Assembly (NCBI RefSeq): GCF_007990505.1
Contig: NZ_AP019822.1
Location: 1,981,568-2,045,567 of the forward strand
Direction of reading: 5' to 3'
Length of the DNA stretch: 64,000 nucleotides
Source of the DNA: Pseudoleptotrichia goodfellowii
GTDB taxonomy: Bacteria > Fusobacteriota > Fusobacteriia > Fusobacteriales > Leptotrichiaceae
Within the stretch, counting starts at the first letter, position 1. The number at the start of each line of letters is the position of its first letter. The notes under the pieces were generated by a model. The model ran no database searches and was not told the origin of the DNA. It worked only from the letters and a program-made list of their open reading frames with translations. This document shows positions 33,823-52,012 of this stretch, one piece after another. A program made the translations under genes and the position numbers.

Positions 33823-33996
33823 TATATTGAACTGCTCCTTATATTTGTTTTTCTATTTTCACTTTGATTATACCTCAAAAATCTTTTTATTCATATATAA
33901 TTTTGCTTTTTCTTTCAATAATTTAAAATTTTTTAAGATATTCTATATTATCATCATTTACTGTATATAATTTCATTTAATCCGACTCATTCTTCT

Positions 33997-34078
33997 AAAA
34001 AAGCCGCCTTTTAGGCAGCTCAAATTTATAGTCTCTTCACTTAAAGGCGACGGAACACCTGAATTTAATCTTTTTCTT
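33997..34078 (-). ncRNA. Candidate small RNA or leader with own promoter and terminator
   Basis: A consensus promoter (34,085-34,113) predicts a start near 34,078 and a strong intrinsic terminator ends at about 33,997, giving a transcript of about 82 nt with no credible ORF. AGGTG can pair with CGCCT around a 6-base loop in the 5' half. The same GTCGCCT segment could also pair over 7 bases with AGGCGGC, the 3' arm of the terminator, so two alternative folds exist. It could be a free small RNA or an attenuator for mutL. I do not recognise a named family. Confidence 0.55.
34003..34020 (-). terminator. Terminator of the candidate small RNA
   Basis: On the minus strand AGCTGCCT pairs with AGGCGGCT across a short AAA loop (34,020-34,003), with one G-T pair, followed by six T residues. 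It is one of the strongest intrinsic terminators in the window. Confidence 0.8.
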
Positions 34079-34084
34079 ATTTAA

Positions 34085-34113
34085 AGTATAGTGGATTCTC
34101 TATTTTTTGTCAA
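34085..34113 (-). promoter_or_regulatory. Consensus promoter downstream of ribBA
   Basis: Minus-strand TTGACA (34,113-34,108), a 17 bp spacer and TATACT (34,090-34,085). It starts 13 bp past the ribBA stop codon, so it is not the ribBA promoter; it reads into the candidate RNA at 33,997-34,078. Confidence 0.7.
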
Positions 34114-34125
34114 GAGATAAATCTT

Positions 34126-37748: not shown

Positions 37749-37959
37749 GGGACTTTTAATAATATAATAACAGTTTTTTATTCAGAATTACTTTAACCAA
37801 TTTAATCAGGAAATTTTTTAAATAACAAACTGCCTGATTAATTATATATAATTCGGATATTTTTAATAATTCCTGCTTTTAATAAAAATTTCAACTCAAA
37901 AATGGGTTATTTATAAGCACGATTATTTCTAACAAAAATAACTATTATTTATATTCTAA

Positions 37960-38066
37960 CTTCTTCCATCTAGACTTTACTATCGGTACCGGAATTTAAC
38001 CGGTTCATGCTCATAAAAGCTCGCGGACTATACCGCCGGTCGGGAATTTCACCCTGCCCTGAAGTT
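37960..38066 (-). ncRNA. FMN riboswitch (RFN element)
   Basis: The minus strand carries the canonical RFN core. CTTCAGGGCAGGGTGAAATT opens at 38,066, then CCGACCGGCGGTA, the GAGC...GAGCATGAACCGGTT helix, AATTCCGGTACCGATAGTAAAG and the closing GGAAGAAG near 37,961, complementary to the opening strand. It binds FMN and shuts down the rib genes when FMN is plentiful. The leader from promoter to ribH is about 390 nt. Confidence 0.95.
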
Positions 38067-38084
38067 TAATTGTTTTATGACAAT

Positions 38085-51838: not shown

Positions 51839-52012
51839 ATCTTTTCCTCCTTGTTTTTGATATTTTTTAAACCTTCTTCAATATGCCCTCACATAATAAA
51901 ATATAAGGAATAAGCCCTACAGCCAAACATATCTTTACAATTTTTATTATTTATATCTGTTATTTCGTATATAATTAAATAAAAATTTTTTCAAGATTGC
52001 TTTTTTGTTATC

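Follow-up and report, generated by a model that had tools for sequence, protein, structure and literature searches.

What is the small noncoding transcription unit that lies between ribBA and mutL in Pseudoleptotrichia goodfellowii, and does it govern mutL? We studied it within a 64,000-nt window of NZ_AP019822.1, that is, the whole stretch of DNA analyzed, whose coordinates are used throughout. The ribBA-mutL gap spans 303 bp (33823-34125), and the promoter, the noncoding interval of about 82 nt and the terminator that an earlier note had described in it were all borne out, on the minus strand from 34113 to 33997:

34085..34113, minus: predicted sigma-70-type promoter TTGACA-17-TATACT (-35 at 34113-34108, -10 at 34090-34085; consensus at 11/12 positions)
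33997..34078, minus: putative solitary ToxI transcript of ~82 nt (promoter-to-terminator span, the 5′ end deduced from the promoter)
33997..34020, minus: intrinsic terminator, G+C-rich hairpin AGCUGCCUAAAAGGCGGCUUUUUU followed by a T run (-11.5 kcal/mol)

A 2-kb scan gave 10 promoter-like sites, with 9.3 expected by chance, and this promoter was far better than the rest. The hairpin at 34020-33997 was not in the list returned by an automatic terminator scan, and an ORF check of the interval revealed no gene of useful length between promoter and terminator.

The interval contains a single ToxI repeat

Using BLASTN before any model was built, we found that the stretch 34025-34060 matches Leptotrichia repeats with E values of 1.5e-7 and 2e-6. 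The search of the interval against relatives otherwise yielded mostly chance matches to A+T-rich DNA, the only real ones being those in Leptotrichia, over query positions 43-98. The homologous Leptotrichia repeats occur in 2-3 tandem copies, with a promoter before and a terminator after them, directly upstream of intact ToxN/AbiQ genes. At locus L010 of genome G025, BLASTN revealed three tandem 39-nt units between promoter and terminator and then an ORF identified as ToxN by Pfam (PF13958, 6e-34), PADLOC (AbiQ, 1e-38) and the PDB entries 2xd0 (ToxN) and 4glk (AbiQ); therefore, the repeats upstream of it are ToxI, the RNA antitoxin. The AGGTG and CCTTTAAGTG blocks also occur in the repeats on a plasmid of P. 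atrosepticum whose toxin is annotated as ToxN/AbiQ. The corresponding features of the P. goodfellowii locus are as follows:

34025..34060, minus: single ToxI repeat AGGUGUUCCGUCGCCUUUAAGUGAAGAGACUAUAAA
34045..34060, minus: stem S1, AGGUG (34060-34056) with CGCCU (34049-34045), five pairs including one U-G
34032..34055, minus: pseudoknot stem S2, UUCC (34055-34052) with GAGA (34035-34032), middle pair C x A
34061..34066, minus: putative ToxN cleavage site, the A-rich edge AAAUUC on the upstream side of the repeat
34027-34022, minus: edge-like AAAUUU on the downstream side of the repeat

A covariance model trained on 13 sequences scored this repeat at 58.8 bits (E 1.4e-11), which is a match to a member of its own training set. 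Across 13 distinct repeats, 95% of the cells in S1 were paired and a double change, A-U to G-C, was seen there; S2 covaried through C-G to G-C double changes. The three-pair core of S2 was present in 24/24 repeats of intact loci but not in the P. goodfellowii repeat, where C x A stands at the middle position of the usual register and shifted or bulged three-pair registers are possible. Judged from its sequence, S2 of this repeat is probably weakened. ToxN cut sites are known to be A-rich (PMC8860590), and an edge of the AAAUUC type also separates the repeats in loci L077 and L079.

The P. goodfellowii locus has no tandem array but one repeat, versus the 2-3 in intact loci of the class; because the repeat is single, we refer to a ToxI relic rather than to a complete ToxI. 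No Rfam family attained its gathering score in the region, and relaxed thresholds did not give a usable family either, which is no argument against ToxI because the intact array of L010 was also without a usable match. The sub-threshold candidates AaHKsRNA82 and PyrG_leader were rejected, their matches resting on the terminator hairpin.

Downstream of the terminator, toxN survives as two terminal remnants

Two short coding remnants were located downstream of the terminator:

33923..33976, minus: toxN 5′ remnant, MKLYTVNDDNIEYLKKF then stop
33868..33930, minus: toxN 3′ remnant, frame different from that of the 5′ remnant, NFKLLKEKAKLYMNKKIFEV then stop

The former resembles the first 17 residues of ToxN (MKLYEISDSYLDYLKSF in L077), and the latter resembles the ToxN C-terminal region (NFELLEEKAKLYLHNK in L010). 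Neither score was attained in 3,000 dinucleotide shuffles (0/3000 for each remnant) or elsewhere in the window. Each remnant is short and weak in tblastn (E 0.016 and 0.004, respectively); what argues for a toxN origin is that both occur, arranged and positioned as expected. Each end retains about 17 codons, ~35 in total, mutually out of frame, with the deletion junction placed within 33923-33930, and the rest of toxN looks to have been lost through an internal deletion. Because only these out-of-frame ends remain, the locus was not classed as a working ToxIN.

The ToxIN order of promoter, antitoxin repeat and terminator is preserved. Intact toxIN loci have a promoter at the equivalent position, and the terminator at 33997-34020 occupies the place of their toxI/toxN terminator. 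For the AAATTC repeat edge as well as for the N-terminal remnant, the closest counterparts are those of the L077/L079 subgroup. The earlier note was thus right about the transcription unit in the gap, and the small noncoding RNA it proposed is supported as a ToxI-family member with its own promoter and terminator; it had overlooked the ToxI homology and the toxN remnants. A TATAAT at 33867-33872 (minus) overlaps the stop codon of the 3′ remnant ~45 bp upstream of mutL, and it is possible that this is a mutL -10 element contributed by the remnant.

Toxin-less ToxI loci recur in the Leptotrichiaceae

In the two congeneric genomes, G001 and G002, ribBA also adjoins mutL, and the gap sequence is unrelated: ToxI is absent from it, and an alignment of the three gaps revealed no common element. 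ToxN was not found anywhere in G001 (only 82% complete) or G002. Since both lack ToxI in the gap and lack ToxN, the locus appears to have been gained in the P. goodfellowii lineage, although an alternative history, loss of toxIN in both congeners, is conceivable.

The covariance model was run over 100 relatives, including 33 Leptotrichiaceae genomes. Besides the P. goodfellowii locus, seven more had ToxI without an adjoining intact toxN (in G004, G013 [L009], G024, G026, G028 [contig 7], G030 and G031); a weak match in G032 (C1:121214, E 0.001) lies outside these seven. A pattern scan of contigs gave two Leptotrichia ToxI loci as well as two coincidental matches in other sequence (Sedimentisphaerales and Oceanospirillaceae).

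Fragments of toxN were found at 5/7 of the further loci. The toxN C-terminus (LLLEEKAKLYEK or close to it) is kept in G004, G030, G031 and G024, joined immediately after the terminator, and these four may represent one shared ancestral deletion; G028 keeps the N-terminus, and L009 has no trace of toxN. The P. goodfellowii locus, G028 and G026 look like independent events. The G026 locus has lost its terminator and toxN and retained two repeats with intact S2, and at that of G024 the promoter is gone, as is part of the repeat. In G004 and in G028, two repeat types look to have fused to form the repeat.

Toxin-less and intact loci were compared in repeat number and S2 integrity. All 9 intact loci of the class have 2-3 repeats, whereas a single repeat was found at six of the seven readable toxin-less loci, the P. 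goodfellowii locus included (Fisher p 0.0009), and a broken S2 core occurred at 4/7 readable toxin-less loci versus 0/9 intact ones (p 0.019), both values treating as independent loci that are not fully so. Among the six readable single-repeat toxin-less loci, the S2 middle pair is broken in four (P. goodfellowii, G004, G028 and G030). Two loci weaken the proposition that toxin loss inevitably follows from having a single repeat: L043 of the Fusobacteriaceae, where an open toxN frame is preceded by one clear repeat, and that of G026, with two repeats and no toxN.

Decay of toxN is wider than deletion, because pseudogenes with internal stops occur in relatives (G066:C26:34116-34607 and G021:C1:1271473-1271963). 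Open frames of ~580 aa in G036, G042, G043, G060 and other Fusobacteriaceae gave weak matches to the ToxN profile (PF13958), with E values of ~1e-4 to 1e-2, below the cut-off.

A probable degenerate toxIN locus with a solitary ToxI

The ToxI homology and its covariation, the toxN remnants, the absence in two congeners and the recurrence of toxin-less loci, all computed here, indicated that the ribBA-mutL unit is very probably a degenerate toxIN (ToxN/AbiQ, type III toxin-antitoxin) locus, its toxin gene reduced to the two ends and a solitary ToxI left. It is neither a mutL attenuator nor a new kind of RNA. Three points sit less easily with this origin, namely, the single repeat where intact loci of the class have 2-3, the lack of an Rfam match (which the intact L010 array shares) and the intact promoter and terminator, which a purely neutral relic would not require.

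In characterized ToxIN systems, ToxN cuts the repeat RNA at A-rich junctions, each monomer is a pseudoknot seated between ToxN molecules with their active sites blocked, and the terminator holds the toxin level under that of the antitoxin (PMC5086642, PMC8860590). We infer a corresponding history, from ancestral processing to present transcription, in the following order. A toxIN locus looks to have entered the ribBA-mutL gap in the P. goodfellowii lineage. Its ToxI RNA would have been made in excess and cut by ToxN to single repeats, which would have sat between ToxN molecules and blocked their RNase sites, while the terminator would have kept toxN expression low. An internal deletion in toxN may then have left only the two ends, together with the promoter, one pseudoknot-type repeat and the terminator. 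The ~82-nt RNA is probably still made today, with no cognate toxin adjoining; with one repeat, an apparently weakened S2 and no toxin, it is most likely functionless, and as an antitoxin it is probably weakened. Given such an origin, we regard a relic without present function as the likely state of the solitary ToxI, because its S2 helix is probably weakened and erosion has gone further at sister loci.

With the same origin, the RNA could instead have been retained as a solitary antitoxin that neutralizes ToxN brought in by phages or plasmids, or a resident ToxN; it would then be a decoy against addiction or abortive infection, much as pseudo-ToxI of phage PhiTE is, and we consider this unlikely. 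The P. goodfellowii genome has four intact toxN genes (G000:C1:473087, 513294, 1118281 and 1420770; L068-L071). The one at G000:C1:513294 is accompanied by two repeats of the same class as the ribBA-mutL repeat, and the other three by antitoxin RNAs of other sequence classes. Fusobacterium phage phiFN37 (L149, OR492271.1) carries an intact toxIN of the same class, with two AGGTG-class repeats, between head/tail genes, and an IMG/VR contig (L147) has a closely similar copy. The same-class toxIN loci in the genome and on phage speak for retention, as do the ability of a phage ToxI-like sequence to defeat ToxIN (PMC3475682) and the intact promoter, S1, repeat edges and terminator. Against retention, S2 is probably weakened here and at three other single-repeat loci, the promoter is gone at one sister locus and the terminator at another, and the ToxN-contacting tail of the repeat is unlike that of the resident ToxI. 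One repeat is also fewer than the 2.5 reported as needed for ToxI-Pa or the 1.8 for antiQ (PMC5086642), a requirement that is not universal because at L043 an open toxN frame follows one clear repeat.

An extension to the family, that single-repeat ToxI forms a recurring retained class in Leptotrichiaceae, seems to us a rather doubtful conjecture. Such RNAs could act as decoys for ToxN of phages or plasmids, or they could be what a purge left behind, with array contraction leaving ToxN uninhibited and deletion of toxN then being selected.

In terms of a degenerate toxIN locus, an unexplained intergenic unit becomes a readable event, in which a type III toxin-antitoxin locus was acquired and its toxin later lost; the interest is that toxin-less ToxI recurs within one bacterial family. 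The series from intact loci, through loci with the toxin cut away and one repeat, to one with the promoter lost reads as a natural record of locus death. It makes two questions testable: does a lone ToxI repeat still block ToxN, and does array contraction precede or follow toxin loss?

A leader role for mutL is not supported

The earlier note had also offered the unit as a leader or attenuator that sets read-through into mutL, 174 bp downstream, by means of two mutually exclusive folds. The alternative pairing does exist: GUCGCCUUU can pair either with AGGUG or with AAAGGCGGC of the terminator, the latter as a 9-bp helix (duplex -14.5 kcal/mol) matched by only 2/2000 shuffles. The two states are not balanced, however. 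In the minimum-energy fold of 33997-34079 (-19.7 kcal/mol), the AGGUG/CGCCU hairpin and the terminator are both kept, whereas the best fold containing the alternative helix reached -14.2, which is 5.5 kcal/mol worse, and a strong helix of this type is missing from the homologues (only -4 to -7 there). Thus, the anatomy of the unit was confirmed and the two-state switch was not; the folding energy of the whole interval was unremarkable (z -1.66). Moreover, the element is not conserved as a leader of mutL, since G001 and G002 have ribBA-mutL in the identical gene order without it. Such a lack of conservation in close relatives was a refuting condition that the note itself had set, and for the leader reading it holds. 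An ordinary toxI/toxN locus accounts for the terminator and the sequence after it. These results leave the leader reading highly improbable.

An unrelated trans-acting small RNA would fit a short structured RNA with a stand-alone promoter and terminator, but it can hardly be upheld, since homology, position and the toxN remnants downstream point to a specific origin, a stand-alone gene is unconserved at this position, and the sub-threshold Rfam matches depend on the terminator hairpin.

Comparison with known systems

The P. goodfellowii locus resembles ToxI of ToxIN and antiQ of AbiQ in its repeat blocks, S1/S2 layout, promoter-terminator arrangement and toxN sequence directly downstream, and it differs from them in having one repeat, a probably weakened S2 and toxN as two short pieces. 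HMP2_14852, a predicted structured RNA of 38 bp upstream of ToxN in Leptotrichia, was proposed to be ToxI (PMC8040213). Matched by description and not by sequence, it is probably of the same RNA class as the P. goodfellowii repeat, with genus and proposed identity alike; it differs in lying upstream of ToxN, and the portion of PMC8040213 consulted does not mention toxin-less copies. Pseudo-ToxI of phage PhiTE is likewise a toxin-less ToxI-like sequence with few repeats (1.5 in the wild type) (PMC3475682), but it is phage borne and expandable rather than a relic flanked by pieces of toxN. Orphan type II antitoxins, for which anti-addiction is discussed (PMC7354431), are similarly retained once the toxin is lost; they are proteins, whereas the P. 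goodfellowii element is RNA. In the literature that we searched, solitary type III antitoxin RNAs were not the subject of any paper, which does not prove that there is none.

Two further RNA elements were observed in the window, both on the minus strand: an FMN riboswitch (37954-38070) upstream of the rib gene cluster whose last gene is ribBA, and an S4-Fusobacteriales ribosomal protein leader (Rfam RF03133) at 51874-51940.
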